Source: an uncultured Pseudomonadales bacterium (GTDB lineage Bacteria; Pseudomonadota; Gammaproteobacteria; Pseudomonadales; Azotimanducaceae). Taken from it: a stretch of DNA of 64,000 nt. The DNA lies in the NCBI GenBank assembly GCA_958296405.1, contig OY282519.1, positions 662,132 through 726,131 of the forward strand. Direction: 5' to 3'. The notes below the pieces were generated by a model. The model ran no database searches, had not been told where the DNA came from, and was given only the letters and a program-made list of their open reading frames with translations. Shown here one piece after another: positions 1-16,003 of the stretch (position 1 is its first letter; each line of letters begins with the position of its first letter). The position numbers and the translations under genes were made by a program.

Positions 1-2061
1 AAGCTCCAGCGCGATGAGGCCGCTGGCGCGACGCCGCGCGAAGCGTTCGACGGGCGTTTTCTTCACCGTCCCATTCGCGGTGGCCATGAACACGAACGCA
101 TCGTCCGCGACATCCCGCAACGGCAGCAGCGCCGTGACGCGCTCGTCGCCATCGAGCGGCAGCATATTCACCAGCGGGCGACCCTTCGCGCCGCGGCTGC
201 CCTGCGGAATCTGGAACACGCGCAGCCAATACACCTTGCCCTTGTTGGAGAAGCACAGCAGCGTGTCGTGGGAGTTCGCGGTGAGCAGATGCTCCACGAA
301 ATCCTCATCCCGCACCGACGTGGCTGTCTTGCCGCGCCCGCCACGCCGCTGCGCTTGATAGACGGTGAGCGGCTGCGTCTTGGCATAGCCCTGGTGAGAC
401 ACCGTGACGACCATGTCTTCCTCGGTGATGAGGTCTTCAGCGCTCAGGTCTTGATGGGAACTCTGAATCTCGGTGCGGCGGTCGTCCCCGTAGCGCTGCC
501 GAATGTCCAGCAACTCTTCGCGAATCACCGCCGTGAGGCGCTCGCGTGAATCCAAAATGGCCTGCAACGCGGTGATCTCGTCCAAGACTTCGCCGTAGTC
601 CTCCATGAGCTTGTCTTTCTGCAGCCCGGTCAGCCGCTGCAGCTGCATGTCCAAGATGGCTTGCGCCTGCTGTTCAGAGAGCCGGTAGAGCCCGTCGACG
701 AAGCCAAACTCCTCGCCCAAGCCATCCGGGCGGCAAGACTCGCTGCCGGCGCGCGTCATCAACTCCGCCACCGCCTCCGAAGCAAAGCGCCGCCCCATCA
801 GCGCCACCCGGGCATCCGCCGGCGTGCGCGACGCGCGGATGAGGTCTACCACCGTCTCTGCATTCTCCAACGCCACCGCTTGCCCTTCGAGCAGATGGCC
901 GCGCCGCTGCGCCCGCGCCACGAGGAACGCCGTGCGCCGAAACACCACCTCGCGGCGATGCTTGATGAACTCCTCCAGCATCTGCTTCAAGTTGAGCAGG
1001 CGCGGTTGGCCATCCACCAAGGCCACGCAGTTAATGCCAAAGACAGACTGCAACTGCGTTTGCGCGTACAGGTTGTTCAGCACCACCTCGCCGGGTTCGT
1101 TGCGACGCAGTTCGATGACGATGCGCAGGCCGTCCTTATCCGATTCGTCGCGCAGCTCCGTGATGCCCTCGATCTTCTTGTCGCGCACCAGTTCGGCAAT
1201 CTTCTCGATGAGGCGCGACTTGTTAAGTTGGTAAGGAATCTCGGTGACGACGATGGTGTCCTTGCCGGCGCCGTCTGACTGCACCGTCGCCCGCGCCCGC
1301 ACATAGATGCGCCCGCGCCCGGTGCGGTAGGCCTGCACGATGCCAGCGCGGCCGTTGATGATGCCGGCGGTGGGGAAATCTGGCCCGTCGATGTGTTCCA
1401 TCAGGGCGTCCACGCCGATGGCGCCATCCTCAAGCAGGGCAAGGCAGGCGTCGATGGTCTCGCACAGATTGTGCGGCGGGATGTTCGTCGCCAAGCCCAC
1501 GGCGATGCCGGCGGAGCCGTTCAGCAACAGGTTCGGCACCCGCGTTGGCAACACCTCCGGCATGGACAGCGTGTCGTCGTAGTTCGGCACGAAATCCACG
1601 GCGTCCTTGTCCAAGTCCGCCAGCAGTTCGCTGGCGAGGCGCTCCATGCGCACTTCCGTGTAGCGCATCGCCGCCGGCGGGTCGCCATCCACCGAGCCAA
1701 AGTTGCCCTGGCCATCCACCAAGGTGTATCGCAAGGAGAAATCCTGCGCCATGCGGGCGATGGTCTCGTAGATGGCGCTGTCGCCATGCGGGTGGTACTT
1801 GCCCATCACCTCGCCGACCACCCGCGCGGACTTCATGTACGGGCGGTTATGGACGTTGTTGAGCTCGTGCATCGCGTACAGAACGCGCTTATGCACCGGC
1901 TTCAGCCCGTCCCGCACGTCCGGCAGCGCACGCCCGACGATGACGCTCATCGCGTAATCGAGGTACGACTGCTTCAGCTCATCTTCGATGTTGACCGGGA
2001 GAATCTCCCGGCCGCGGGTTCCCCCGCTGTCGGCGACGGAATCCCCCCCGGCATCAGACAT
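1..2061 (-). CDS. gyrA: DNA gyrase subunit A, 3' end beyond the window
   Basis: This is the DNA-cleaving subunit of DNA gyrase, which pairs with GyrB to introduce negative supercoils. About 687 codons from the N-terminus are visible; the C-terminal beta-pinwheel is only entered and no stop is seen. The start is the ATG ending at 2061. Hallmarks are the segment [20 protein letters not shown], the catalytic tyrosine at about residue 134 in AMRYTEVR, and the quinolone-resistance region [14 protein letters not shown] near residues 89-101. That region has Ser at the Ser83-equivalent and Glu at the Asp87-equivalent of E. coli. The tyrosine context and NFGSVDGD favour GyrA over ParC. The gene borders an accessory island on its 5' side. 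Confidence 0.96.
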
Positions 2062-2393
2062 TGGGCAGCTTGCCTAAGGGCAGTCCAAAGGGATCGATTT
2101 TATCATTGAACGGGGGCGGGCCGGAGGACAAAGGCGATACCTCCTCCTCGTCGACAAACGACGATCCACTCTTGATCAACGAGCTCGTCGCGACAGTTTC
2201 GCCATCACCGGGCCGGTACGAAACGACGCGAGACCTGCCGTTCGCCTCAGGCGACTGGCAGGAAGCCATCCCTGGGTTGCCGCGCATCCAGCGTCAGCAC
2301 CTCGCCCTCTGTGTCGAAGCGACTCTGGTGACCCATGTCCGTCGTTCGGCGGATACAGCCTGCGTAAAATGGGCAACGCAGACCGGCCTCGAC
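2062..2393. other. gap between gyrA and the helicase gene
   Basis: This 332-base stretch must contain the gyrA promoter and leader, since gyrA reads leftward from 2061. A minus-strand frame of 77 codons (2054-2287) ends in the peptide [11 protein letters not shown] and runs into the gyrA start. I cannot assign it to a family and treat it as unsupported. No clear terminator, tRNA or repeat was seen. Confidence 0.4.
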
Positions 2394-4883
2394 TCATCGA
2401 ATGGGCTCGCTCTCCAACAGATTCAACAAATCCGGCCAAAGAAGCCCTTTCTTTCGCATCGCCTCTCCCATCTGCTCGCGCAGCTCCATCGGCAACGCCC
2501 CGCTCGCAACGTCCTTAAGCAACGACTCCAGTTTCTCCCCCAGTTCCTTCAAGCTCTCCAATCTCACCACTACCATCTCCTCGCTAGGATTCGCGCTCGA
2601 CGTAGCCTTTTGCTTAGGCCCCACAAACATCGGAACGACTTCCACAATATCTGGGTTTTCCACACGCACCCACTGAATATGGTCATACATCTGCCCCACC
2701 TCTTTCTTCCCGTAGCTACTACTCTGACTTTTGTTCGTCTTTACTTCTATGCAAATTGCAACGTTGAAGTCACGCACGATCCACAATACATCGGGCCCCG
2801 TACGCACCTCGTTGTCCGGTCTCGAAGACTCGAATCCCAAATATTGACCGAGATACCGCAATGACTCCTCTACATTCCCGCTCGATCCTCCACGCAGGCC
2901 ACCCAGATTCAACCGAAGCCCTTTCGGCGGCTCAAGCTCCGATCCTCTACCCGGCAAGATCTGACGGGCGACCTGATCTACTTGAATTGACACCGTCTCG
3001 CCCGCATCGCCGAGAATGTCTTGGTGGCGAGGGACATTCTTTTGAATCGCATGCGCATCTCTGTACAGTTCCTCCGCCGACGTCCTGTCACCAGACCTCT
3101 CAAGTGCGTAGGCCAGCCAAACGCCATGCCATGCACCGGTATTCTCACTCACGCCCATTGCGCTACCACGAATTCCCTTCAACGCTTTCGCCGCCCCTTG
3201 ATAGTTCGAGTCCCAAAGGCGTTCCATGTACTTGCCCTCTCCCAGCGCCACTTCAAGCATCATCTTGTCACTTGCGTTCGCAGTCGCAACCTCCTTTTCT
3301 TCCGTATCGTCTACATATTTCTTATAGTTGCTCCTCCACTCTGGATTTCTGTCGAGGCAGTACGACGCTACACCATTCAGATCACCATCCTCGATTTGAT
3401 CAGAGAGCTCATGACCAAGCTCGATCTGCCTGCGTAAAAACGAAGGAAGCAGTTTCAGGTTTCTCTCCGTACCGAGCCATTTGAGGAGGCGTTCGCCCGT
3501 TAGGATGACTACACCATGGTCGTTCATACCTCTAGAAATCCGTCCGAAGCACTGCACCAATCGGGAGGCTATTGTGTTTCTCAGTGCATTATTGATGCGT
3601 AGCTGCTCCCAGAGGTAGCGCTCGAGCGGTCCTAAACCTATTGGCAAACCGTCGATGACGAGAATCCGGCATGTATTTCCCGGAAGGTCTACGCCATCAT
3701 AGCGACCGACGAGAAGCAGCTTCCTACGTTCATCAGCTCTAGAGTCGCGAAATCTCCTAACCTCGTCTGGTACGGATTCCCTTTTCGGGGGATTAGCGAT
3801 CTCCGACCAAGTCTCCGCGCCTTTGTATGTTGGCACGACGATCAAAGCCTTATATCTGCGCAGGAAGTCGGCGGTCGCTTGGTACTCGTCCGCTTGGCGC
3901 GATGGAAACAGCACGAGGCGTTCGCACTTTCCGGCTTTGGTTGACGAAGATATCGTCTTGGTTGGAGCCCGGCCGAAAGTCCGAGCAAAGGAATCTAGTG
4001 CATTTAAAGTTGCCGATAGATAGACTCGGCGCACATCGGTGGAGAAGTAGGGGAGAGTACTCACAGGGACAAAGGGGGGAGTGATAGTCAACGATTGTGT
4101 TGACAGGAGAAAGCAGCAATGGTCAATGTGATCCCGCAGGTGTTCCCAAGCGAACATGGTACCTTGGTCTTTCGTTAGACGACTAGACATCAATATTCGC
4201 TCTATCTCACTTTTGTGTTGGTAAACTACATTTGGAGGTATCCAGAAAGTGTTGTTGGACACACCATCGCACATCTCAATGTAGCTAACTGAGCGGCCAA
4301 CTCTATAATGATAATCCGCAAAGAGTTCGGCTAGTTTCTCGTACGCCGAGGACATACCGCTACGGTCTATGCTAAGGGTGAACTGATCCCTTAGTATCTG
4401 ATCTGCTGTGTGCGCATCGTCGAAGATCACGGCGGCGATGTCGTGTTGCCGGAATATTGTTTTGCCGTTGAAGATCGCTTGATATGTGGTCAAGCAGGGC
4501 TTCTGTGCCCTTTCGTAGCCGTCGTCGGAGAATTCTGTACGGTAGTAGGTCGTGACGTCGAGGCCGTACCCAGCCGCCATTTCCCTCGTCTGTTCAATAA
4601 GTTGTATGGATGCACATGCATAGACCACTTGCCTAGAAGACTCGTTGACGAGAGATTGGGCGATCAAAAGACCAACTAGGGTCTTTCCTGCGCCGGTGTT
4701 CAGGACAATACTGATGTCGCTTTCGCTACGGTTGGCGTGGAAATCCCGGAGAGCGTCGCCTTGAGGGAGCCAAAGTTCGTTTACGTTCCCATCCGATATT
4801 GTGCAGGACTGGAATATCTCTATCGGGTCAACGGGGCGGGCCGTGCTCGCGGTTGGACGGATCTTATTGAAATCTATGGCCAT
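2394..4883 (-). CDS. superfamily 2 helicase fused to a C-terminal PD-(D/E)XK nuclease
   Basis: This 829-residue protein is predicted to be a nucleic-acid motor fused to a nuclease. The N-terminal half is a DEAD/DEAH-type helicase: Walker A NTGAGKT at residues 62-68, the DDAH box at 155-158, and a motif VI-like QCFGRISRG in the middle. Near the C-terminus GPD (Asp698) is followed by CIEVKT (Glu713, Lys715), the spacing of a PD-(D/E)XK active site. The start is the ATG at 4881-4883 because GAGGA lies seven bases upstream; an in-frame codon at 4910 is less likely. GC is clearly lower than in gyrA, which points to horizontal transfer. It follows a Fic gene by 42 bases in the same direction. A defence role is an inference from architecture and neighbours; no named system is recognised. 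Confidence 0.8.
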   Translation of the reverse strand: MAIDFNKIRPTASTARPVDPIEIFQSCTISDGNVNELWLPQGDALRDFHANRSESDISIVLNTGAGKTLVGLLIAQSLVNESSRQVVYACASIQLIEQTREMAAGYGLDVTTYYRTEFSDDGYERAQKPCLTTYQAIFNGKTIFRQHDIAAVIFDDAHTADQILRDQFTLSIDRSGMSSAYEKLAELFADYHYRVGRSVSYIEMCDGVSNNTFWIPPNVVYQHKSEIERILMSSRLTKDQGTMFAWEHLRDHIDHCCFLLSTQSLTITPPFVPVSTLPYFSTDVRRVYLSATLNALDSFARTFGRAPTKTISSSTKAGKCERLVLFPSRQADEYQATADFLRRYKALIVVPTYKGAETWSEIANPPKRESVPDEVRRFRDSRADERRKLLLVGRYDGVDLPGNTCRILVIDGLPIGLGPLERYLWEQLRINNALRNTIASRLVQCFGRISRGMNDHGVVILTGERLLKWLGTERNLKLLPSFLRRQIELGHELSDQIEDGDLNGVASYCLDRNPEWRSNYKKYVDDTEEKEVATANASDKMMLEVALGEGKYMERLWDSNYQGAAKALKGIRGSAMGVSENTGAWHGVWLAYALERSGDRTSAEELYRDAHAIQKNVPRHQDILGDAGETVSIQVDQVARQILPGRGSELEPPKGLRLNLGGLRGGSSGNVEESLRYLGQYLGFESSRPDNEVRTGPDVLWIVRDFNVAICIEVKTNKSQSSSYGKKEVGQMYDHIQWVRVENPDIVEVVPMFVGPKQKATSSANPSEEMVVVRLESLKELGEKLESLLKDVASGALPMELREQMGEAMRKKGLLWPDLLNLLESEPIR

Positions 4884-4925
4884 TTTTAGCTTCCTCGAGG
4901 TAGCCCGCAATGTAGGGCCCGGATC

Positions 4926-5921
4926 CTACGGGTCGTCATCCACCGGCGGCAAGTAGGTGGTGCCCACCGTGCGCCCGCCGTTGCCGTTCGGTCGGTTCGT
5001 GTTGCCGGCCAGCGCTCGTTGGCCTAGGCGCACAGCTTCGCCTAACGTGACAAGCGCTAAGCGGCCAAGGTAGTCGCTGAACGCCCTTAGACCGCCAGTG
5101 TTGGCTGTTTCCAAAACGTCGATGTAGTCGCTTCGTCCAACGGCCGTGATGACGGGCGGCGGCTCGCTGCGGCGGATGAAGGCGTAGGCCATGAGCATCC
5201 GCGACACGCGGCCGTTGCCGTCTTGGAACGGATGCGTGCGCACGAAGCGGTGATGCATCCACGCGGCTTCCACATACACCGGGTAGCGTTGGTGCTCCAC
5301 TTCCGCGTGCAGGGCGAAGAAGCGGTCCATCTCGTCCTGCACCACCTCCGGCGGGCAGTGCTCGTGCATCACGCCGTCCGGGCGGCGCGGGTTGTTGGGG
5401 CGGTTCTTCCAGACGCCCTTGCGGCGGAACGGCACCTGCACCCTGCGGCCCTCGACCGTGAGGCCGGCGACGGTCTCCTGATGGCGCGTCACCAACTGAT
5501 GCCATGACTTCACGGCATGTTGCGTGAGCGGCCGGCCGCTGGCGACGTCTTCGAACAGCATGTTGTAGGCCGCCTCCTGATCCGCGAGCAAGCCCTTGAT
5601 GGTGCGGTCTTCGACGTTCTCCACCGTGTGGGAATGCACCACGCCTGCAAGGCCCTCGGCGATGAGTTGCTCGGTGATGCCCGCCTTGAGGGTGTAGAGG
5701 CCCTCGATCTGGCCAGTTTCGATGGCGAACGCCCGACCACGCTCTTCCAGCCACTTGTCGAGGAAGGCGCGAGGTTCGTCGCGGTCTTTCAGGCTGGCGC
5801 GGATGGACGCCCACTTTTCGCTGAGCTCGGCGTAGCCGGGCACCAGCCAGCTGTGGGCGCTGTCCGGCATGCCGGTGAGCGGGCGCCAGACTTCGGATGG
5901 CTGTTGGTTGGGGAGGTGCAT
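4926..5921 (-). CDS. Fic-domain AMP transferase with built-in inhibitory motif
   Basis: Fic enzymes usually transfer AMP from ATP to hydroxyl side chains of target proteins. The 331-residue product has the full catalytic motif HPFQDGNGRVSR at residues 230-241, including the catalytic His230. N-terminal to it, TGQIEG at 69-74 matches the inhibitory (S/T)xxxE(G/N) motif, whose glutamate obstructs productive ATP binding, so this is a class II (self-inhibited) Fic. The start is the ATG at 5919-5921, preceded by GGAGG; a longer reading to 6086 overlaps the upstream gene and lacks support. It lies between the AlbA-type gene and the helicase-nuclease on the same strand, probably as one transcript. 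The target is unknown. Confidence 0.9.
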   Translation of the reverse strand: MHLPNQQPSEVWRPLTGMPDSAHSWLVPGYAELSEKWASIRASLKDRDEPRAFLDKWLEERGRAFAIETGQIEGLYTLKAGITEQLIAEGLAGVVHSHTVENVEDRTIKGLLADQEAAYNMLFEDVASGRPLTQHAVKSWHQLVTRHQETVAGLTVEGRRVQVPFRRKGVWKNRPNNPRRPDGVMHEHCPPEVVQDEMDRFFALHAEVEHQRYPVYVEAAWMHHRFVRTHPFQDGNGRVSRMLMAYAFIRRSEPPPVITAVGRSDYIDVLETANTGGLRAFSDYLGRLALVTLGEAVRLGQRALAGNTNRPNGNGGRTVGTTYLPPVDDDP

Positions 5922-6028
5922 GGGACCCTCCAAGGGCTGCCTTGCTCGGCAGCCGTCAACTGCGCGGACATGCTCGTAACATCTGTCCGAACGGAGAAAT
6001 TGTACGCCTGAATCGCCCTTGCCGTCGT

Positions 6029-6985
6029 TCACCAACTGGCAGTGACCATCCTGCCGGATTTCTCTCGGGAGCCTTCCCGAGCCCACAACGTCAGCCGCAG
6101 CTCGTCCCCAAACAATCGGTACTCCGGTTTGCGCCCAGAGTGCGCTTCACCCTGTCGCAAGATCTTCCGCACCCCTTCGCCACGGGACTCTAGGAACACT
6201 TGCCCGGTGCGCTTGCTGCGCAGGCGGGAGAGGAAGCTCACCAAGAGCTGGTTGCGGGTGAAGGTTCGGTAGGGCATGTCGTCTAGCGTTAGCGTGTTGG
6301 GCAGTTTGCCGGGGCTGTAGAGCTCCAGCCGGTCTGCAAACAGGAACAGGCGAATCTTCGAACCGCCAATGGAATAGTCTCGGTGGGCGACGGCGTTGAC
6401 GATGGCCTCGACCACCACATCGATGTCATACGCACGCCGGCCGGCAGCGGGGCCGGCCTGCTGCATGAACTGCGCGACGAATGCGGTGGCTGCGTCTATC
6501 TGATCGGAAGCGGGGCCAGCGAGCCGTTCAACGTGCGTGAGATGATCGGACGAGAGTTCCGTGCCTGCGTAGCAGGCGGCTTCGATGGAGCAGGACGGCA
6601 GGAAGTCCGTTGGCTCGGTGGCGAACGCGAGCAGCCCGGCGACGGTGGGGCGGTCTGCGCCGTGCTCGTCCCGCACGGCGACGTGGGTGTTGCGCAGCAA
6701 GTCCAACCACGGAATCGTCGGCGAGCGGCCAAAGAAGGCTTCGAGGCGATGTTGGTTGAGGCCCGAGACGCTGGCGGCGAGCACGGCCTGTTCGTCGAAG
6801 ACGTACTCGCGGCCGCGCTGCTGGAACAGGCGCACGAGTTCCGCCGGCGTGAGGTCTCGCGTCGAGCTGCCAATGCGCTGGTAGTAGCGCCCCGCCCGTT
6901 GTGCGATGCATATGGAAACCACGAGGAATTTCGCCAAGGATCAAGTGATTGCGTTCGCCTTCACCCGCAGAACGTGCATGCCAGC
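6029..6985 (-). pseudogene. AlbA/Schlafen-type ATP-binding protein, N-terminally truncated and frameshifted
   Basis: The frame ending at 6029 matches COG2865-like proteins, which carry an N-terminal AlbA_2 domain and a C-terminal HATPase fold. Visible parts are the linker RIGSSTRDLTPAELVRLFQQ, the ATP-binding segment VEAIVNAVAHRDYS and a C-terminal winged-helix-like tail. The only start in this frame is a TTG at 6937 just after a stop, and most of the AlbA domain is missing. The preceding family segment (HLILGEIPRGFHMHRTTGG) is present in another frame up to about 6893, so one extra base in the C-run at 6890-6893 seems to have broken the gene. Upstream of about 6985 the resemblance is lost, and an IS5 element follows from 7167. 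A short product from the TTG cannot be excluded. Confidence 0.7.
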
Positions 6986-7166
6986 ACGGTTTGGGCTTCG
7001 CCACGGCGAGTGCAGATAGAAGCCGAGGCACTGCGCCAAGCCGGGATGTGGCCGCAGTCGCCACACTCGCGCCCTTGACGCCGGGTGGAGGATCACCTTC
7101 TTCTGCTGGGAAGAAGAAACGCACATCCCTGTCCCACACGTCAAGTAGCCGCACGGCGACCGTTAA

Positions 7167-7179
7167 GGAAGGTCTGAAC
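7167..7179 (+). repeat. left terminal inverted repeat of the IS5 element
   Basis: GGAAGGTCTGAAC reads inward from the left end. It is a perfect 13-bp match to the complement at 8309-8321, and similarity beyond it is imperfect. Confidence 0.92.
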
Positions 7180-7312
7180 CGACGGCTGGCGGTCGGCGAA
7201 GGCGGGTTCGACAGCGCCTTGGGCGCGGAACCGCCGCGAATGTGGCGCGATTCCGCCGCTTCGACGCCGTTTCCGGCGTTTTCCCCGCCTTCCGGGCGCA
7301 CGGGCGCCGCGC

Positions 7313-8254
7313 TCAGGCGGCCAGCCTCCGCTCGGCGATCAGCAGGTTGGCGAAGCCCAGCAGCAGCGCGATCCGCTGCGCGTTCTTGTGAAGCCCGCGG
7401 TAGCGAACCTTGCCGTAGCCGAACATCCGCTTCACGTAGAAGAACGGGTGCTCCGCCTTGGCGCGGACCGACGCCTTCTCCTTCTCCCGCAGCGCCGCCT
7501 CGCCGCCGGCCTCCAACTGCCGCCGCAGGCCCGGACGCATCGCCACCCGCCAGTCCACGCCCCGGCCCTTGTTCTCCGGGCGCTTCTCCACGCCCCGGTA
7601 GCCCGCGTCCGCCCAGACGCGCCTCTCGCCGCCGTGCAGGAGGCGGTGCGCATGCGCCACGTCCGACTCGCTCGCCGCCGTCGCCGCGAAGCTGTGCGCC
7701 ACCCCCGTCTCCGCGTCGGCGCCAATGTGCATCTTCATCCCGAAGTGCCACTGGTTCCCCTTCTTCGCCTGCCGCATCTCCCGCTTCCCCGAACGGTTCT
7801 TCGTCGACGACGGCGCCTCAACGATGCTCGCGTCAACCACCGTCCCCTCCCGCAGCCTCAGGCCCCGCGACGCCAAGCTCGCGTTGGTCGCCGACAGCAG
7901 CGCCTCCCCCAAGCCGTGCCTCTCCAGCAGATGGCGGAAGTTCAGGATCGTCGTCTCGTCCGGCAGCGCCGACAGCTTCAGGCCCGCGAACCGACGCACC
8001 GACTCGACCTCGTAGAGCATGTCCTCCATCGCCGGATCGCTCAGGTTGTAAAACAGCTGCGCGCAATGCACCCGCAGCATCGACGACAGCGGATGCGGCC
8101 GGCGGCCGCGGCCCGCCTTCGGACAGTGCGGACGGACCGCCTCCTCCAGCTCCTTCCACGGAACCAGCCCGTCCATCCGCTCCAGGAACTTCTCCCGCCG
8201 CGTCTTCCGCTTCTTCGCCGAGTACTCCAACTCCGCGAACGTCGCTTGGGTCAT
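7313..8254 (-). CDS. IS5-family DDE transposase
   Basis: The 313-residue transposase catalyses cut-and-paste movement of the surrounding element. It follows the E. coli IS5 transposase along its whole length: N-terminal TFAELEYSAKKRKTRREKFL, then GRRPHPLSSMLR, YNLSDPAMEDMLYE, the catalytic region VVDASIVEAPSSTKN, KKGNQWHFGMKMHIGAD with the second acidic residue in WADAGYRG, and the C-terminal RAKAEHPFFYVKRMFGY containing the catalytic glutamate. The start is the ATG at 8252-8254, preceded by GAGAGG; a longer reading to 8356 would cross the element's own end. No frameshift is visible, so the gene looks functional. Confidence 0.95.
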   Translation of the reverse strand: MTQATFAELEYSAKKRKTRREKFLERMDGLVPWKELEEAVRPHCPKAGRGRRPHPLSSMLRVHCAQLFYNLSDPAMEDMLYEVESVRRFAGLKLSALPDETTILNFRHLLERHGLGEALLSATNASLASRGLRLREGTVVDASIVEAPSSTKNRSGKREMRQAKKGNQWHFGMKMHIGADAETGVAHSFAATAASESDVAHAHRLLHGGERRVWADAGYRGVEKRPENKGRGVDWRVAMRPGLRRQLEAGGEAALREKEKASVRAKAEHPFFYVKRMFGYGKVRYRGLHKNAQRIALLLGFANLLIAERRLAA

Positions 8255-8308
8255 CGAACGCCTCTCCCAACGGTCAACGCGCCCATTGTCGCAGCACAGC
8301 CGGCGCTT

Positions 8309-8321
8309 GTTCAGACCTTCC
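8309..8321 (-). repeat. right terminal inverted repeat of the IS5 element
   Basis: The complement of GGAAGGTCTGAAC, flanked outward by the second TTAA copy (8322-8325). The transposase start lies about 55 bases inside this end. Confidence 0.92.
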
Positions 8322-8325
8322 TTAA

Positions 8326-8669
8326 CACCCGATTCTCGGGGACGGGCGGGCTTCAACCCATGCGATCAACCGCCCAAGGTTGAAATCGGCAGCGCCGTCC
8401 CCACAATCATGCTATGCTCACGGCAACCTGTTCAACGAGGGCTGAAGCCTCTTGCAAGAGGCATTGAACGGCCTGCCGTCGCAATGCGAACGCGGTGGAG
8501 CCCATGAGAGGTTCGGAGAGTTGAATTGAAGAGGGGCAATCCCCATGTTACTCGCTAGCCCCACCGGCATCAGCGACGCATCTTAAACGCCTCGTTTGGT
8601 CGACGCATCGACTATCGCATCTAAAAGCAGCCTGTAACGGGCGACTACGCAACGCTGGAGACTCGCATC
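8326..8669. other. leader region upstream of the ubiquitin-like operon
   Basis: No protein gene is supported here. The stretch separates the IS5 element from the ubiquitin-like operon and must hold the operon's promoter unless the IS supplies it. It contains a TATGCT -10-like hexamer at 8413-8418 without a convincing -35, then a strongly self-complementary nested hairpin (8421-8478) and a small GGGG-CAAT-CCCC hairpin at 8533-8544. About 125 bases follow before the first ATG. Confidence 0.5.
8421..8478 (+). other. nested hairpin, possible structured RNA leader
   Basis: Three sets of complementary arms are nested. The outer CGGCA (8421-8425) pairs with TGCCG (8474-8478), GTTCAA (8430-8435) pairs with TTGAAC (8464-8469), and the inner 16-bp perfect palindrome GCCTCTTGCAAGAGGC lies at 8447-8462. 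GAGG at 8437-8440 could alternatively pair with CCTC of the palindrome, giving two mutually exclusive folds. I recognise no known RNA family. A structured non-coding RNA, an attenuator or a protein-binding cruciform are all possible. Confidence 0.5.
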
Positions 8670-8930
8670 ATGGACATTGACGACAAAGGCCAACCCAAGG
8701 GCATCCGCATACACCTCAACGGCAGAGAGAAGGTTCTGACCGACGACAGCATCAGTTTCGAGGATTTGGTTCTCCTCGCCTATCCCAAAGGCACCGAATT
8801 CGATCAGCCTGGCTATCGCGTGGTCTTCAGCAACGCCGTAAGACCGCAATATGGTGATCTTAAGGCCGGCGAAGTGCTCAAAGCCAAGGACGGAACTGTG
8901 ATCAATGTCACACCCTTTGATCTCTCATAG
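8670..8930 (+). CDS. ubiquitin-like beta-grasp modifier (multiubiquitin-type domain)
   Basis: This 86-residue protein looks like one ubiquitin-like domain: a first strand pair IRIHLNGREKVLTDD, a helix around SFEDLVLLAYPKG, then YRVVFSNA and a C-terminal strand ending TVINVTPFDLS. Its type, size and place immediately before an E1-like gene match bacterial multiubiquitin/DUF2604-like modifiers. It lacks the di-glycine tail of classical ubiquitin, so either another C-terminal residue is activated or processing differs. The ATG at 8670 opens the operon, and the stop overlaps the next start by 26 bases, implying coupled translation. GC is near one half, unlike the flanking core genes. The assignment rests on pattern and context. 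Confidence 0.72.
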   Translation: MDIDDKGQPKGIRIHLNGREKVLTDDSISFEDLVLLAYPKGTEFDQPGYRVVFSNAVRPQYGDLKAGEVLKAKDGTVINVTPFDLS

Positions 8931-10119
8931 CGAGGACTTGACCCGTCTCTCGGATGACGGATATGCCCTAGCAATCCGAGAGGGAACGCTCATTGTCGAG
9001 GACATACCTTACGAGAGCGCTGGATCGATCAAGCGAGGTGCGTTCGTGTGCGGAATCGAAGACGACACGAATAGGACGTTGCCACCGGGCGATCATACTA
9101 TCTGGTGGTCAGGAGACGAGCCTAACGCTTCACTCATGGGGCTCCCAAAGAGTCCTGTCTGCTCTAGAGACGAGCAGATGATAGCTGGTGTACAAGTCCG
9201 ATTCCAGTTGTCCATTAAGAAGAGGTCGCCGGATGGAACTTGGGAAAACTATGTCGATTACTTCGACAAAATTTCCACATACGCAGACTTTCTGACCCGC
9301 AGTGCCAAGGCAATTGATGCATCCGCAACCGCTCGCTCCAACAGAGTAATTTCGTTTGAGGAATCCGAAAGCGTCTTCACGTATAGAGATGGAACGGCCG
9401 GCGTCCGGGGTATAGATCTGATAAACAAGAAGGTTGAGCACGAGATAGTAGCTATTGTTGGGACCGGTGGTACGGGAAGCTACATACTAGACTTTGTGGC
9501 CAGAACGCCGGTTGCCGAAATACATCTCTTTGATGACGATATCCTTAAGGCCCACAATGGCTACCGGTATCCAAGCGCCGTCCCGAAAGAGGACATCCAA
9601 GAGCGTCTGCATAAGGCTAAGTTTTTGTCTGACAAATACAGCAAGTTCCGTCGCGGCATATTTCCTCACATAGAGCCAGTTTTTGAACAACTACCAAAAT
9701 CTCTTTTGTCGGCAACGTTTGTGTTTCTCGCTATCGATAGCCCGCGAGACAAGCGCGGCATAGTGTCCAGCTTGCTTCGATTAAAGATGCCTTTCGTTCA
9801 TGTGGGCATCGGCATCAACATCCGACGACCGACCCCACACGATAGTCTATTTCAGGCCCTTGCTGCGGTGACCCTAATGGCGCCGGAAGATGACTGGAAC
9901 TTGGACTTGGCGGCGAAATACATAGGATTTTCGGACCCAGAGGAACAGGGCATTTATTCGTCGAATGCGCAAATCGTGGAGCTTAATGCGTTGAACGCAG
10001 CATTGGCGGTCCTCCAATGGAAAAAGTATAGGGGAGTGTATGTGTCAGGCAAAGAGATAGATACTAGCTACGACACTGAACTCCACCTACTGGCCAAGCG
10101 CACGGCGACGGAGAGGTGA
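8905..10119 (+). CDS. E1-like ThiF-family adenylyltransferase with N-terminal DUF6791-type domain
   Basis: This protein is predicted to adenylate the C-terminus of the small modifier encoded just upstream. The 404 residues divide into an N-terminal region of about 160 residues resembling DUF6791 (ISHSEDLTRLSDDGYALAI, later IDASATARSNRVISFEE) and a ThiF/E1 Rossmann domain with the ATP loop GTGGTGS at 186-192, the acidic HLFDDD at 207-212, and FLAIDSPRDKR further on. The whole protein has only two cysteines, Cys49 and Cys86, both in the N-terminal region. The ThiF part therefore has no thioester cysteine in the usual place. The ATG at 8905 overlaps the modifier gene, and the TGA at 10117-10119 overlaps the next gene's GTG. 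Confidence 0.85.
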   Translation: MSHPLISHSEDLTRLSDDGYALAIREGTLIVEDIPYESAGSIKRGAFVCGIEDDTNRTLPPGDHTIWWSGDEPNASLMGLPKSPVCSRDEQMIAGVQVRFQLSIKKRSPDGTWENYVDYFDKISTYADFLTRSAKAIDASATARSNRVISFEESESVFTYRDGTAGVRGIDLINKKVEHEIVAIVGTGGTGSYILDFVARTPVAEIHLFDDDILKAHNGYRYPSAVPKEDIQERLHKAKFLSDKYSKFRRGIFPHIEPVFEQLPKSLLSATFVFLAIDSPRDKRGIVSSLLRLKMPFVHVGIGINIRRPTPHDSLFQALAAVTLMAPEDDWNLDLAAKYIGFSDPEEQGIYSSNAQIVELNALNAALAVLQWKKYRGVYVSGKEIDTSYDTELHLLAKRTATER

Positions 10120-10505
10120 TAGTCGAACCGGCGTTCGTAGAGTCCATACCGGACACAATGCGTCCAAGAGTCATCTATGTGTGCCTTCCGTGCAAGGTGG
10201 TGTGTCACCTGTGTCTTTGTGGCTGCGGCTGTGAAGTTGTGACACCTCTCACACCCTTGGATTGGTCATTGACCTACGATGGTAAGCATGTCTCTTTGTA
10301 TCCTTCTATCGGCGGATGGGCGTTACAATGTAAGTCGCACTATTTCATCAGGCGAAACCAAGCAATCTGGGCCGGTAGGATGAGCAAGCGAGCGATCGAG
10401 CGTAGTCGTCTATCACGAGCACGGGCAGGCGACCTGGATGCAGAACGAGGCTTGGGGGCTAGATGGTGGCGATGGAGTCGTCTTTGGCGGCAGATACGGA
10501 GGTAA
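10116..10505 (+). CDS. DUF6527-like cysteine-rich protein of the ubiquitin-like operon
   Basis: This 129-residue protein has the DUF6527 pattern: a strand ending in VIYVCLPCKVVCHLC, the cluster CLCGCGCEVVTPLTP, then SLYPSIGGWALQCKSHYFI and AIWAG. Cysteines at 23, 26, 30, 33, 35, 37, 39 and 72, with His75, could bind one or two zinc ions. DUF6527 proteins are found beside DUF6791-ThiF and multiubiquitin genes. A conjugation (E2/E3-like), removal or zinc-scaffold role is possible, but I know of no proven activity. The gene starts with GTG at 10116 in a GTGA overlap with the E1 stop. The basic, tryptophan-rich tail after residue 95 is unusual. Confidence 0.75.
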   Translation: MIVEPAFVESIPDTMRPRVIYVCLPCKVVCHLCLCGCGCEVVTPLTPLDWSLTYDGKHVSLYPSIGGWALQCKSHYFIRRNQAIWAGRMSKRAIERSRLSRARAGDLDAERGLGARWWRWSRLWRQIRR

Positions 10506-11069
10506 ATCCGCCACACCGTCTCGGACTCGGTGTACGGCAGCACGGGATACACGATTTCTTGGCGTATCCTGAGCGCAGTCTGCAAGCCTTGGTTGTCGGG
10601 AAGGTGGGTCCCTTTACCGGACCATACTCGGTCAGCGTAAGGACAAGACCGTATTGGCGGTGCGCATCGGACCTACCGACAGCTGCGTGGAACGGCTAGT
10701 GGACTTGGACCACCGTTCGACTGTCGGCAAAAGTCGAAGATGCGCCTCACCAGCTCGGCTTGGCTCTTTGCGGCGAGTGAGCACAGATAGAACCGCCCCA
10801 CCAGCCACCCTTTTGGTCGATGGGCACCGCCAGACAGACTGCTCTTCGAGAGAAGTTGCCCACAGGCGAGGAAGGGCCTTGGCGTTGAAGGCGGTGGCGC
10901 GGGAGAAGGCTCGGGCGACCATGAATCAGCCCCGGGGCAGATGGCGCATAACTCCTTGACGACGCTGCCGTGCCGTGTGGTCGACTTAGACGCCGCCGCC
11001 CACCCCCGTCCCTTCCATCCCCCCGCCCCATCCGCTAGACTCACGCGACAGTGCAGCAGGGACGAGCGC
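10506..11069. other. gene-poor, apparently decayed sequence before rpoZ
   Basis: Several short open frames cross this 564-base stretch, but none resembles a family I know. About 40 bases at 10755-10796 resemble 6988-7025 near the broken AlbA-type gene (shared CGGCGAGTG and CAGATAGAA blocks). Both may be debris of one lost element. The last bases before 11070 should hold the rpoZ promoter; no clear promoter was identified. Confidence 0.4.
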
Positions 11070-11387
11070 ATGGCCCGCGTGACCGTTGAGGATTGCCTTG
11101 AGCATGTCGATAACCGCTTCGAGCTCGTCATGGTGGCGAGTCGGCGGGCGCGGCATCTGCATCGCCAGTTGGCGGAGCCGTTGGTTCCTGAAGAGAACGA
11201 CAAGCCAACGGTGATCGCGCTGCGTGAAGTGGCGGAAGGGCTCATCGACGATGAGGTCCTCGAGGCGCCGGAGGCGACCGCGGAAGACCTTGAGTTCGAG
11301 TCCATCGACAAAGTGCGCAGGTTGGAGAGCATCGCCAGGGCCAACATGGCGTTCGATGTGGGAGATGACCCAGCCAACGATCTATGA
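11070..11387 (+). CDS. rpoZ: RNA polymerase omega subunit
   Basis: Omega is the small subunit that stabilises beta-prime in RNA polymerase and forms part of one ppGpp site. The 105-residue product starts [20 protein letters not shown] and continues with [11 protein letters not shown] and [11 protein letters not shown], the conserved N-terminal core. The C-terminal part is acidic. The ATG at 11070 is the family start; an upstream extension is unsupported. The gene overlaps spoT by 23 bases, the usual gammaproteobacterial rpoZ-spoT pairing. gmk, which often precedes rpoZ, is absent; an accessory island lies there instead. Confidence 0.95.
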
Positions 11388-13563
11388 ATCCTACTTCGAA
11401 GCCCGGCTCAGGGAGGCTGCGTGCCGGGATGAGGTCGCCGCGCCGGCAACCATCGGTTCGTTAGCGGAGTCACTTTCTAGCTACCTCACCGAGCCGCAAG
11501 TCGCGGACATCGAGCGCGCCTTCGAGTTTGCCCGTGAAGCCCACGATGGGCAGATGCGGCGCACTCAGCATCCCTACATCACGCATCCGCTCGCCGTCGC
11601 CAAGATTCTCTCGGAAATGCGCATGGACGATCAGTCCATCGCCGCGGCGCTGCTGCACGATGTGCTGGAAGACACCGGCGCCACCAAGGATCGCCTGGCG
11701 GAGGACTTTGGCGAGGGCGTGGCCGGCATCGTCGATGGCGTCAGCAAGTTGGCGACCATCTTCAATACCCATGAGCAGGCGCAGGCCGAGAACTTCCAGA
11801 AGATGGCCATGGCCACCGCGAGGGATTTGCGGGTCATTCTGGTCAAACTGGCAGACCGGCTGCACAACATGCGCACCATCGGCGCGTTGCCGGGCCACAA
11901 GCGGCGGCGCATCGCCAAGGAAACGCTGGACTTGTATGCGCCCATCGCCAACCGCCTCGGCATGCACAACATCAAGGTGGAGTTGGAAGACCTCGCGTTC
12001 GACGCGCTCTACCTGCTCCGTTCAGACCGGTTGCGGCGCGCCGTGGCGGCGGCGCGGGGCAATCGCAAGGCGCTCATGGACGAGTTGGGCACCTCCATTG
12101 AAGCGGCGTTGCGTCGGGAAGGCATTGACGCTGCGGTGCGCGGGCGCGAGAAGCATCTTTACTCCATCTACGCGAAGATGAAGACGCAGCGGAAGTCCTT
12201 CACGGAGATCATGGACGTGTTCGGCTTCCGCATCGTCGTCGATCAAGTCGATGCCTGTTACCGGGCGCTCGGCGTGATGCACAACCTTTACAAGCCAGTG
12301 GTCGGCCGCTTCAAAGACTATGTGGCCATTCCCAAGGCGAACGGTTACCAAGCGCTGCACACCACGCTGTTCGGCATGCATGGCGTGCCCATCGAGGTGC
12401 AGATTCGCACCCGCCAAATGAATGCGGTGGCGGACCATGGCGTCGCCAGCCATTGGTTCTACAAATCTGCCGCCGAAAGCTACAACGGCGGCGAGGCGCG
12501 GGCGCGGCAGTGGGTGCAGGGGTTGCTGGAGCTGCAGCAACGCGCTGGAGACCCGTTGGAGTTCGTCGAAAACCTGAAGATCGATCTGTTTCCAGACGAG
12601 GTGTACGTGTTCACGCCACGCGGCGACATTCTGGAGTTGCCGCGCGGTGCCTGCGCCATCGATTTTGCCTACGCCGTTCACACAGACATCGGCAACCACT
12701 GCGTTGCGTGCCGGATAGACCGTGCCTTGGCGCCCCTTTCGCGGCAGTTGCAGAGCGGCCAGACGGTCGAGATTCTCACCACCAAGGACGCCCGCCCCAG
12801 CCCAGATTGGCTCACCTTCGCCGTTTCCGGGCGCGCCCGCTCATCCATCCGCCAAGCCTTGAAGGTGCAGCAGCGCTCTGAATCCATCGCGCTGGGGAAG
12901 GCGCTGTTGGATCGCTCGCTGCGCAATGCCAACACCTCCATCAAGAGTTTGGACTTTCGGCGCCTGCGCAAGGTGTTCCGCGAGTTCGGCGTGCGCAAGC
13001 TGAATGACTTGTTGGCCGAAATCGGCCTCGGCAACCGCTTGGCATACGTCGTGGCGCAACGGCTGCTTTCCGCAGACGATCCGAACTACGAAGCCGTGGA
13101 CATCGAACGCGGCGGCCCCGTTGCCATCCGCGGCGGCGAAGGGCTGGTCATCAGCTATGGCCGCTGCTGCGGGCCGGTGCCCGGCGATGCCGTCATCGGT
13201 CACATGACGCCGGAGCGCGGCTTCGTCGTCCACATGGACACCTGCCCGAACCTTGAGGAAGTGCGGCGCCGCAAGCCCAACGAGATCATCCCGGCGCGCT
13301 GGGCGGAATCCATCACCGGCGAGTTCGACACCTCGCTGCTGCTGGCCGTGCGGCGGCGCAAGGGCGTCATCGCGCAAGTTGCCGCTTCGATGAACGAAAG
13401 CAACGCCGGCATCAACAACATCCACGTGGAGGAGCGCAACGCGGAACTCTCCAACATCACCGTGGACCTGTCCGTTGCAGACGTTTCGCACCTGAACCGG
13501 ATCGTGCGGCGGCTGAGCGCCATCAGCACCGTGCAGAATGTGCGGCGGCCCGCCGTCGCCTAG
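11365..13563 (+). CDS. spoT: bifunctional (p)ppGpp synthetase/hydrolase
   Basis: SpoT makes and degrades the alarmone ppGpp. The 732-residue protein has an intact HD hydrolase domain ([10 protein letters not shown], His-Asp at 98-99), a synthetase domain with YGYQALHTT-like NGYQALHT, a TGS domain ([16 protein letters not shown]), a helical/zinc-finger region ([16 protein letters not shown]) and a C-terminal ACT domain. The synthetase motif is [15 protein letters not shown] is the RxKD form of bifunctional SpoT/Rel rather than the acidic RelA form. The likely start is the ATG at 11365 inside the rpoZ end; an ATG at 11356 is an alternative, and neither has a well-spaced ribosome site, consistent with coupling to rpoZ. 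Confidence 0.95.
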
Positions 13564-13579
13564 GAGGCTTGAACCCGTC

Positions 13580-13966
13580 ATGTTCCGCGAAGCCATTCAC
13601 ACCGATGCCGCCCCCGCCGCCATCGGCGCCTATTCGCAAGCCGTGCGCGTGGGCGAGGCCGTTTACCTCTCCGGCCAAATCGGGCTGGACCCGGCCACCA
13701 TGGAATTGGTGTCGGCAGATGCCGAAGCGCAGGTGCGCCAAGTCTTCCAGAACCTTGCAGCGGTGGCGCGCAGCGCCGGCGGGAGCTTCGCCGACATCGT
13801 GAAAGTCACCGTGTACCTCACGAACCTCGCTCACTACGGCGCGCTCAACGAGGTGATGGCAGAACTCTTCTCCCCTCCCTATCCGGCGCGGGCGGCCGTC
13901 GGCGTCGCGGCGCTGCCGCGCGGCGCGTTGGTGGAAGCAGACGCGGTGCTGTTGCTGCCAACTTGA
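13580..13966 (+). CDS. ridA: RidA-family enamine/imine deaminase
   Basis: RidA hydrolyses reactive enamine and imine intermediates released by PLP enzymes such as threonine dehydratase. The 128-residue protein shows [20 protein letters not shown] at the N-terminus, the conserved arginine in [19 protein letters not shown], and the acidic C-terminal segment. The ATG at 13580 is preceded by AGGAGG about twelve bases upstream. The gene lies between spoT and recG; the following recG start overlaps its stop in a TTGA arrangement, so the group is probably transcribed together. Confidence 0.95.
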
Positions 13967-15999
13967 GCACCCGCGTGGCGACGCGGGAAGACCCTGTCAC
14001 CGCATTGCGCGGCGTTGGCCCCCAAGCCGCGCAGGCCCTCGCCAAGGGCGGCATCGCAACCGTTGGCGAGCTGTTGCTGCATCTGCCCCAGCGCTATGAA
14101 GACCGCACCCGGTTTGTGCCCTTGGCGGACATCAAGATCGGGCAGTGCTGCCTCGCCCGCGGGCAGGTCGTGAAGGTGGATGCCGGCTATGGCCGCCGCC
14201 GCGCCCTCACTGCAACGCTGGAGGAAGCCGGCGGCTTCTTGACCATTCGGTTCTTCCATTACAACGCCCAACAGCGGCAAGCGCTGCGCCCAGGCATCTG
14301 GTTGCGCTGTTTCGGCGAAGCGCGCGTTGGCCCGGCGGGGCGCGAAATGGTGCATCCGGAGTATCGCGCCTCCTCCGCGCGGCCAGACGAGCCGGACGCG
14401 GTGCTGACGCCGGTGTACGGCACGGTGGGCGGCATCACCGGGGTGCGCTTGCGCCGTTTCATTGCAAGCGCCTTGGACGATGGTGCCGCTCAGGGCGGCA
14501 GCAACCTGCCACTCGCGCCGTTCGCAGCCTTGGATGACGCCATCGTGCTTCTGCACCGACCGCCACCGCAGACGACGCCAGACGAACTCGACGCGGCGCG
14601 CACCCGCATCGCCCAAGATGAGTTGCTCGCCCAACATCTGCTGATGAAGGCTCGCCAAGCGCTGCGCGAACGCCTCGCCACCCGGCCCTTGCCGCGCAGC
14701 CAAGGCTTGGGGCGGGAGTTGCGCGCCAACTTGGATTTCGCCCTCACGCGGGCGCAACAGCGCGTTACCGCCGAAGTGCTGAATGACCTGGAGCGCAACC
14801 GGCCCGCCATGCGCCTGCTGCAGGGCGACGTGGGTTCCGGCAAAACCATCGTCGCCGCCTTTGCGGCCATCCGCGCCGCGGAACACGGTTGTCAAACTGC
14901 GGTGATGGCACCCACGGAGCTCCTCGTGGAACAACACTACGAGCAGTTCTCTGGCTGGCTGACGCCGCTCGGCATCGATGTCGCCGCCATCACCGGCCGC
15001 CTCTCCGCCGGCGAGCGGCAAGCGCGTTTGGACGCCACGCAGCGGGGCGACGCGCTGGTCGTCGTCGGCACGCATGCGCTGTTTCAATCCACGGTCATCT
15101 TCAAGTCCTTGGCGCTCATCATCATCGACGAACAACACCGCTTCGGCGTGCATCAACGCATGATGCTGCGGCACAAGGGCAGGGCGCCGCATCAGCTCAT
15201 CATGACGGCCACGCCCATTCCACGCACGCTGACAATGGCGCTCTATGCGGACATGGACGTCTCCGTCATCGACGAGTTGCCGCCGCAACGCAAGCCAGTG
15301 CAAACCCGCGTGACGCCGGGCGCCCGCCGCGGCGAAGTGATGGAGCGCGTCGGCGATTGGTGTCGCTCCGGTCGCCAAGCCTATTGGGTTTGCACGCTCA
15401 TTCAGGAATCCGACGCGCTCGATTCCCAAGCCGCGGAAGCGGTGGCCGTCGAACTGCAGGCAGCGTTGCCGCATCTCAAGGTGGGCCTCGCACACGGCCG
15501 CTTGGCGCCCCGCGAGCGCACCGATACGATGGCCCGCTTCAAAGCGGGAGACATCGACGCGCTGGTGGCCACCACCGTCATCGAGGTGGGCGTGGATGTG
15601 CCCAACGCCTCGCTCATGGTGATCGACAACGCCGAACGTTTGGGCCTCGCCCAACTGCATCAACTGCGCGGGCGGGTGGGGCGCGGCGGCCAGCAGAGCC
15701 ACTGCATCCTGCTGTTCGAGCCACCGTTGTCAGACATCGCCCGCAAACGCCTAGCCGTCATGCGCGAAACCAACGACGGTTTCGCCATCGCGGAGAAAGA
15801 CCTAGCATTGCGCGGGCCGGGAGACGTGCTCGGCACCCGGCAAACTGGCGAAGAAACGTTCCGCGTTGCAGACTTGATGCGAGACGCTCACCTCATGCCA
15901 AGGATCATCGAGTTGGGCGAGGAGCTAGATCCAGAAGCCAAAGCCACCGTGCTTGAGACGTGGGGTGGCATGGCGCACGCAAACTACGTCGAAGTGTGA
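13963..15999 (+). CDS. recG: ATP-dependent DNA helicase RecG
   Basis: RecG remodels branched DNA, reversing stalled forks and processing Holliday junctions. The 678-residue product has the N-terminal wedge domain ([17 protein letters not shown] and the OB fold around residues 40-150), Walker A GDVGSGKT, the Walker B/DEQH box [19 protein letters not shown], and the C-terminal RIGRGGQ-like motif and TRAP segment ([21 protein letters not shown]). The length matches the family (E. coli 693). A TTG at 13963 overlapping the ridA stop is the probable start; a GTG at 13975 is an alternative. Confidence 0.95.
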
Positions 16000-16003
16000 C
16001 CCG

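Follow-up and report, generated by a model that had tools for sequence, protein, structure and literature searches.

How could a ubiquitin-like protein (UBL) be activated and passed on by an operon of only three genes, with no E2 or JAB partner beside them? The question is raised by a locus in a stretch of 64,000 nucleotides (nt) from an uncultured Pseudomonadales bacterium of the Azotimanducaceae (GenBank assembly GCA_958296405.1, contig OY282519.1, positions 662,132 to 726,131, forward strand), called the window below, in which the genes of a UBL, an E1-like enzyme and a DUF6527 protein overlap as follows (positions within the window):

8670..8930, forward strand: UBL gene, single Multi_ubiq (beta-grasp) domain, 86 residues, ATG start (PF14452, 9.9e-08)
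8905..8930, forward strand: UBL/E1 overlap of 26 nt, in which E1 is read in the +1 frame relative to the UBL
8905..10119, forward strand: gene of the E1-like enzyme (DUF6791 and ThiF), 404 residues, ATG start
9955..9957, forward strand: E1 codon 351 (Tyr), invariant in 87 of 87 aligned E1s, probable counterpart of BubCD Tyr370
10116..10119, forward strand: 4 nt (GTGA, read from the sequence) shared by the E1 stop and the DUF6527 start
10116..10505, forward strand: gene of the DUF6527 protein, 129 residues, GTG start (PF20137, 6.6e-22)

The explanation that we favour, at slightly better than even confidence, is that these genes form a compact UBL activation and probably conjugation module that works without E2 and JAB and represents a sister arm of the Bub operons. 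The gene content beneath it is confirmed: as a preliminary description of this DNA had proposed, the three families are Multi_ubiq, an E1-like enzyme of DUF6791-ThiF type and a genuine DUF6527, and the matches to PF14452, PF20590 (DUF6791, 2e-31, residues 10-162 of E1), PF00899 (ThiF adenylation domain, 1.6e-08, about residues 167-404) and PF20137 all exceed Pfam's curated cut-offs. The best NCBIfam match of the E1, hypothetical protein PRK06153 (2.8e-95), falls under the cut-off (319.7 vs 352 bits), and its ThiF domain finds only weak E1-E2 matches in PADLOC (best 5.2e-07).

Relatives were collected with an alignment of five E1s as query, taking as loci the best 80 of 539 candidates in genome contigs, 7 loci in viral contigs, five from genome searches and the window; 88 loci in all hold both UBL and E1. 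Left out of the overlap count were L001 and L008 (the window again), L002, L003, L010 and L011 (JAB type), and L069, L094, L096, L097 and L098, in which no UBL was found and the match lies less than 160 nt from the contig start. The E1 alignment has 87 rows and omits L009, a DUF6791-type operon of the same genus (L009:1441-2671) in which UBL and DUF6527 are still open but E1 is interrupted by a stop. Co-occurrence of the three genes in other genomes had been set beforehand as a test, and it held: in 87 of the 88 loci, window included, a DUF6527 gene follows no more than about 2 kb downstream of E1 (directly after E1 in 83; the count is 81 under a stricter open reading frame (ORF) rule), and in the remaining locus, L013, the contig ends 36 nt past E1. 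Since UBL and E1 recur together in 87 further loci, 86 of them with DUF6527, the grouping is not due to chance.

The constant overlap and the end of the modifier

The register between UBL stop and E1 frame is identical in 101 of 101 loci, i.e., the 88 above and 13 from a second sample that was chosen by DUF6527 outside the window genome. That sample comprised 29 loci, of which 13 are DUF6791-type (all with the 26-nt register), 7 JAB-type and 9 neither; another DUF6527 locus, L115, lies outside the 29. In all 88 loci a codon of the E1 frame begins 25 nt ahead of the final base of the UBL stop, and this shared position holds a start codon in 87 (84 ATG, 2 GTG, 1 TTG), the exception (L061:5992) having CCG followed by TTG and being the only such locus among the 101. 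Beyond that position the spacing to conserved E1 residues is constant (L5 in 78, D11 in 81 and L12 in 82 of the 88 loci).

The UBL ends in serine in 100 of the 101 loci (88/88 and 12/13) and in alanine once, never in the C-terminal glycine of canonical thioester systems; in the window, its natural C-terminus is INVTPFDLS. The overlapping codon of E1 residue 8 (R in 48 loci, H in 24, L in 14, P in 2) reads C-N-T, meaning that the bases making the UBL serine and stop are kept while the free base varies. To put a number on this we used 67 representatives with mutual E1 identity below 70%, which are nevertheless not independent. Two other sets drawn from them are A2 (63 of the 67, leaving out four with a non-ATG start) and A3 (61 of the 67). 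Terminal serine occurs in 67 of 67 representatives, against an expected share of 0.30 if the E1 residues alone were held; K, Q or R at UBL position -2 reaches 0.98 against 0.37 expected from E1 coding, and T at position -4 reaches 0.94 against 0.30. These excesses indicate selection on the tail of the UBL itself, with its length fixed.

The preliminary description gave both overlaps correctly and took them to imply fixed stoichiometry, a claim that our data do not support: the 26-nt overlap is invariant with selection on the UBL C-terminus as its visible cause, and the E1/DUF6527 junction varies, the 4-nt option being present in 52 of 81 loci. Its families, its known operon kind and its defence-type neighbours stand; it had overlooked the kinship with Bub, the missing invariant cysteine of E1 and the divergence of this copy.

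With a terminal serine set by the stop codon, no maturation protease would be needed, which for the window's arm is the simplest reading. Of the nine UBL domains in the JAB arm, 5 are part of a chain that also contains an E2 domain, so cutting would be required to free a UBL tail. In one JAB-type operon (L128:5496-5753) the UBL gene comes after DUF6527 as the final gene, and the UBL continues beyond a glycine near its C-terminus. Among the publication titles listed we found none on the fixed overlap or the terminal serine, though full texts outside our survey may hold them, and the words DUF6527 and DUF6791 occur in none of the papers of the collection searched. As far as could be read, what is new at family level is the 26-nt register with terminal serine, an invariant tyrosine without an invariant cysteine in the E1 of operons that have neither JAB nor E2, and the arm-specific DUF6527 residues.

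Kinship with known systems and parts of the machinery

That the operon kind was already known, as the preliminary description had it, is borne out by Iyer, Burroughs and Aravind 2006 (PMC1779556), whose passages on operon type 6e include a form with a 'domain X' in place of JAB. Like that form, the window's arm brings together a protein of one to three Ub-like domains, an E1-like enzyme whose N-terminal domain is uncharacterised and a putative metal-binding protein, and is spread sporadically. The first component is a PF14452 protein, and the profile of 67 UBLs matches PDB 9cd2 over positions 6-86 (E 2.1e-25), which agrees with the earlier reading of the 86-residue protein as a single beta-grasp domain; the N-terminal domain of the E1 is DUF6791, presumably 'domain X' itself; and the third protein has C33-x3-C37 followed by C72-x2-H75 (75/75 each), a putative metal site. 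The signature in those passages is C-x3-C-x35-38-H-x2-C, whereas the second half in the window's arm is C-x2-H, and the fixed overlap and terminal serine are absent from them. The window operon is a divergent new example of an operon order described in 2006. In their passages on UBL systems, the reviews PMC12687455, PMC11354881 and PMC12355090 contain nothing on the DUF6791-type arm.

By its tail (VTQTDKS), PDB 9cd2 ('ZDHYS365 multi-ubiquitin domain protein') is a UBL of the DUF6791-type arm, although its 222 residues include further domains, whereas the window UBL has one domain and a deviating tail. With the Bub operons (BubA, BubB, BubCD; PDB 9ea4, 9ea5, 9ea8, 9eae, 9eav) the window shares a multi-ubiquitin-type UBL, a ThiF domain related to that of BubCD and a conserved tyrosine near the end of that domain. 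DUF6527 is present both here and in nine JAB-arm operons (7 from the second sample plus L010 and L011), every one of which was found through DUF6527. The window's arm differs in having DUF6791 instead of a JAB domain fused to E1, no E2-like BubB, a UBL ending in serine at the stop codon, and H31 and C35 in DUF6527. Judged by these sequence relations, it is a sister arm of Bub. Both arms of the family are co-resident in the window genome (3.83 Mb, one contig), where two more DUF6527 genes lie in JAB-type operons, L010 and L011, ordered UBL, E2-like, JAB-E1, DUF6527; the L010 E1 matches Citrobacter BubCD in PDB at 2.6e-29. At L010:5876-6904 (about 1.2 Mb in that genome), a gene of a ClpP-like SDH-type serine protease (PF01972, 1.3e-13) overlaps the end of the DUF6527 gene and may encode a UBL-linked protease. 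The L011 operon (L011:205-10001) is flanked on one side by a large gene without Pfam match (methyltransferase-like by eye) and on the other by an AAA ATPase and a SNF2 helicase with a PLD-like part, surroundings that look like a defence island. Bil operons and Cap2 of CBASS are likewise UBL or E1 systems of bacteria with defence genes nearby; these employ cysteines of E2 or E1 together with a JAB peptidase, whereas in the window's arm we found no JAB, E2 or invariant E1 cysteine.

Custom profiles detected neither E2-like nor JAB matches in window positions 2001-16000, in line with the preliminary description of the operon. As far as their sequence was sampled, none of the 88 loci has a JAB match and 87, including the window, have no E2-like match. 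The sole one, in L030, lies more than 3 kb downstream of the operon on the opposite strand, beside a second E1; this pair (L030:9571-11369, in an uncultured archaeon record) is 2 to 4 kb from the DUF6791-type operon. No column of the 87 E1 rows is invariantly cysteine. The best is C74 (79/87), which is Asn in the window, and the arm appears to have no catalytic cysteine of the canonical kind. By contrast, Tyr351 is invariant, its probable counterpart is kept in 9 of 9 E1s of the Bub/JAB arm, and by residue count this counterpart is probably the tyrosine mutated in PDB 9eav.

We considered whether DUF6791 hides one of the missing parts. Its predicted order (helix, four strands, P-C loop, later helix) looked suggestive of an E2 with C74 as catalytic residue, but the hhalign probability to JAB-arm E2s is 2.3 locally (E 0.021) and 0.0 globally, and C74 is absent from 8 of 87 members and from the window. 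As a JAB relative it scores 0.2 locally and 0.1 globally. Both rejections are profile-based, the rows for fold comparison barely covering E1 residues 1-150.

The DUF6527 protein carries, throughout the DUF6791-type arm (75/75), the pattern H31-x-C33-x-C35-G-C37 ... P63-S64 ... C72-x-S74-H75-Y76. JAB-arm proteins keep C33 (9/9), C37 (8/9), C72 (8/9) and H75 (9/9), the putative zinc ligands, while H31 (0/9), C35 (4/9) and S74 (3/9) are less retained; H31 and C35 are candidates for an arm-specific function, nine JAB sequences being few. For the window protein, whose predicted model has a predicted local distance difference test (pLDDT) score of 89.5, we found no solved relative by sequence and no fold match of the model, in line with what was first said of the third component.

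Surroundings and spread

Left of the operon, the window contains:

2394..4910, reverse strand: PDC-S28 helicase, PADLOC candidate (1.3e-274)
4926..6086, reverse strand: Fic gene
6029..6937, reverse strand: HATPase_c_4 gene
7162..8326, reverse strand: insertion sequence (IS) element with DDE transposase and perfect terminal inverted repeats of 18 nt, lying upstream of the operon and not belonging to it

The first three are the defence-type neighbours noticed earlier, and the IS element separates the operon from them. Its transposase ORF, as called, begins outside the right repeat; in the same genome the element has one full match (itself) and 24 partial ones, which point to many degraded relatives. 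GC content is low at the operon, as first noted (0.54-0.55 over 8-11 kb vs 0.60-0.67 from 10 to 21 kb), and low at 2-5 kb too (0.53-0.55).

A divergent gene for an M78-family peptidase lies upstream in 32 of the 88 loci (upstream for the nearest match in each of them), and 4 further loci have one on the same strand; there was no match in the remaining 52, some with short flanks, in 20 control regions, or in window positions 2001-16000. Part of a 2016 paper (PMC4963859) reports that 70% of PF14452 proteins adjoin toxin-antitoxin-like loci whose toxin has a COG2856/DUF955 domain. In a survey of 20 random representatives out of 32 with at least 13 kb (six neighbours each), the 120 neighbour proteins matched 105 PADLOC families at 1e-15, capP being commonest (5 members), against 7 families when 110 neighbours were taken from 20 regions chosen arbitrarily in 14 genomes; this contrast is rough, given overlapping families, mechanical ORF calls and controls of one phylum. 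An upstream gene of M78/CapP type in about a third of relatives suggests stress-induced expression and a defence role, and it is this neighbourhood that makes an anti-phage role conceivable.

The family is scattered. Origin records cover 86 E1 rows, 77 of them in 15 named phyla, with two records archaeal; on a quick E1 tree taxon labels cluster, yet 26 changes are needed for 15 groups, which is consistent with transfer between lineages but is not proof of it. Of 72,556 plasmid records, 114 carry E1 relatives, which in 104 cases span 80% of the query or more, and 83 of the records are conjugative or mobilizable; among 50,697 phage records there was no such relative. DUF6791 is rare (5/369 genomes of the class and 2/58 relatives, own genome counted in both), and DUF6527 was found in 19/398 genomes of a phylum sample (own included) and 11/385 of another class, with one genome common to both samples. 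Three loci from bins named Anaerolineaceae or Chloroflexi (L014, L015, L019) have equal length, an identical UBL tail and near-identical E1 starts. At L129, a lone DUF6527 fragment is accompanied by a transposase-like ORF running into a second DUF6527 piece, likely a broken operon.

Competing readings and meaning

In the favoured reading, the ThiF domain would adenylate the C-terminal carboxylate of the UBL, i.e., that of the terminal serine, as the conserved adenylation residues, the fold and the C-terminus suggest. The activated UBL would then be handed on without an E1 cysteine, either directly to a target or via Tyr351, and the putatively zinc-binding DUF6527 could serve as the transfer or target-choosing subunit; the transfer step is best read as non-thioester or DUF6527-assisted.

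Several points weigh against this reading. Activation and conjugation are predictions from genes and sequence conservation; Tyr351 was matched to BubCD Tyr370 by a gapped alignment without direct pairing; DUF6791 has no assigned role and its C74 (79/87) is replaced in the window; C35 occurs in some JAB-arm proteins, all from operons found through DUF6527; one UBL, that of L152, lacks the terminal serine (it ends TGQA with the register kept); and most loci (52/88) have no M78 match. The window copy adds its own: its E1 is the longest branch of the 87 on the quick tree (2.07 vs a median of 0.33, next L056 with 1.68), its departures affect 8 of 64 near-invariant sites, most of all rows (D299H and R321A among them), and its UBL tail is TPFDLS against a consensus of TATDKS, F and L standing at places that hold T and K/Q/R in nearly all relatives. 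These departures may reflect drift of this copy.

The strongest rival, doubtful though far from negligible, takes these departures further and holds the window copy to be a decaying remnant, with frames intact and function lost after transfer and the upstream IS insertion. It would fit the lack of an M78 match in window positions 2001-16000 and the stop in the E1 of the same-genus L009. Yet all three frames, both overlaps, the terminal serine, the adenylation motif, Tyr351 and the DUF6527 set H31/C33/C35/C37/C72/H75 are kept, and L056 and L092 depart nearly as often (7 sites each). The copy is intact but unusually divergent, lacks an M78-type regulator and is a poor choice as a model protein.

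Less probable, and in our view unlikely, is that E1 modifies the UBL C-terminus with no protein conjugation, the serine carboxylate being activated for an intramolecular or small-molecule step. MccB modifies the C-terminal Asn of a peptide and TcdA acts on t6A; both are among the PDB matches of the E1 family profile (TcdA 7.6e-08, MccB 3.8e-05), the fixed terminal residue has a side chain, and neither an invariant E1 cysteine nor an E2 was found. However, the alanine of L152 means that a hydroxyl is not required everywhere, and Bub, the closest relative, has an E2-like subunit and a publication whose title says 'protein conjugation'. Very improbable, and already disfavoured, is a sulfur-carrier pair like ThiS-ThiF or MoaD-MoeB: the C-terminal Gly-Gly is missing (C-terminal glycine in 0/101 UBLs), the crossover-loop cysteine that ThiF has finds no invariant counterpart among the E1s, and the distribution is that of an accessory and plasmid gene.

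Returning to conjugation by an E2-less module, a bolder version, tentative and rather unlikely as it stands, would have a second UBL-tagging chemistry: a UBL born mature with a C-terminal serine, an E1 without catalytic cysteine, an intermediate held either as an ester of the E1 tyrosine or as a thioester at the Cys35/His31 pair of DUF6527, and DUF6527, which could be the transferase, as a new class of transferase replacing E2. Known UBL conjugation relies on a tail ending in glycine, on thioesters of cysteine and, in most cases, on a protease for processing. The operon kind has long been known, and yet its DUF6791-type arm seems to do without all three. If the bolder version is true, ubiquitin-like conjugation would need three genes only, without protease, E2 or RING. 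The fixed overlap and terminal serine offer precise sites for mutation (Ser86, tail length, Tyr351, and Cys35 and His31 of DUF6527), and the split between JAB arm and DUF6791 arm would show which parts of a ubiquitin system are dispensable.
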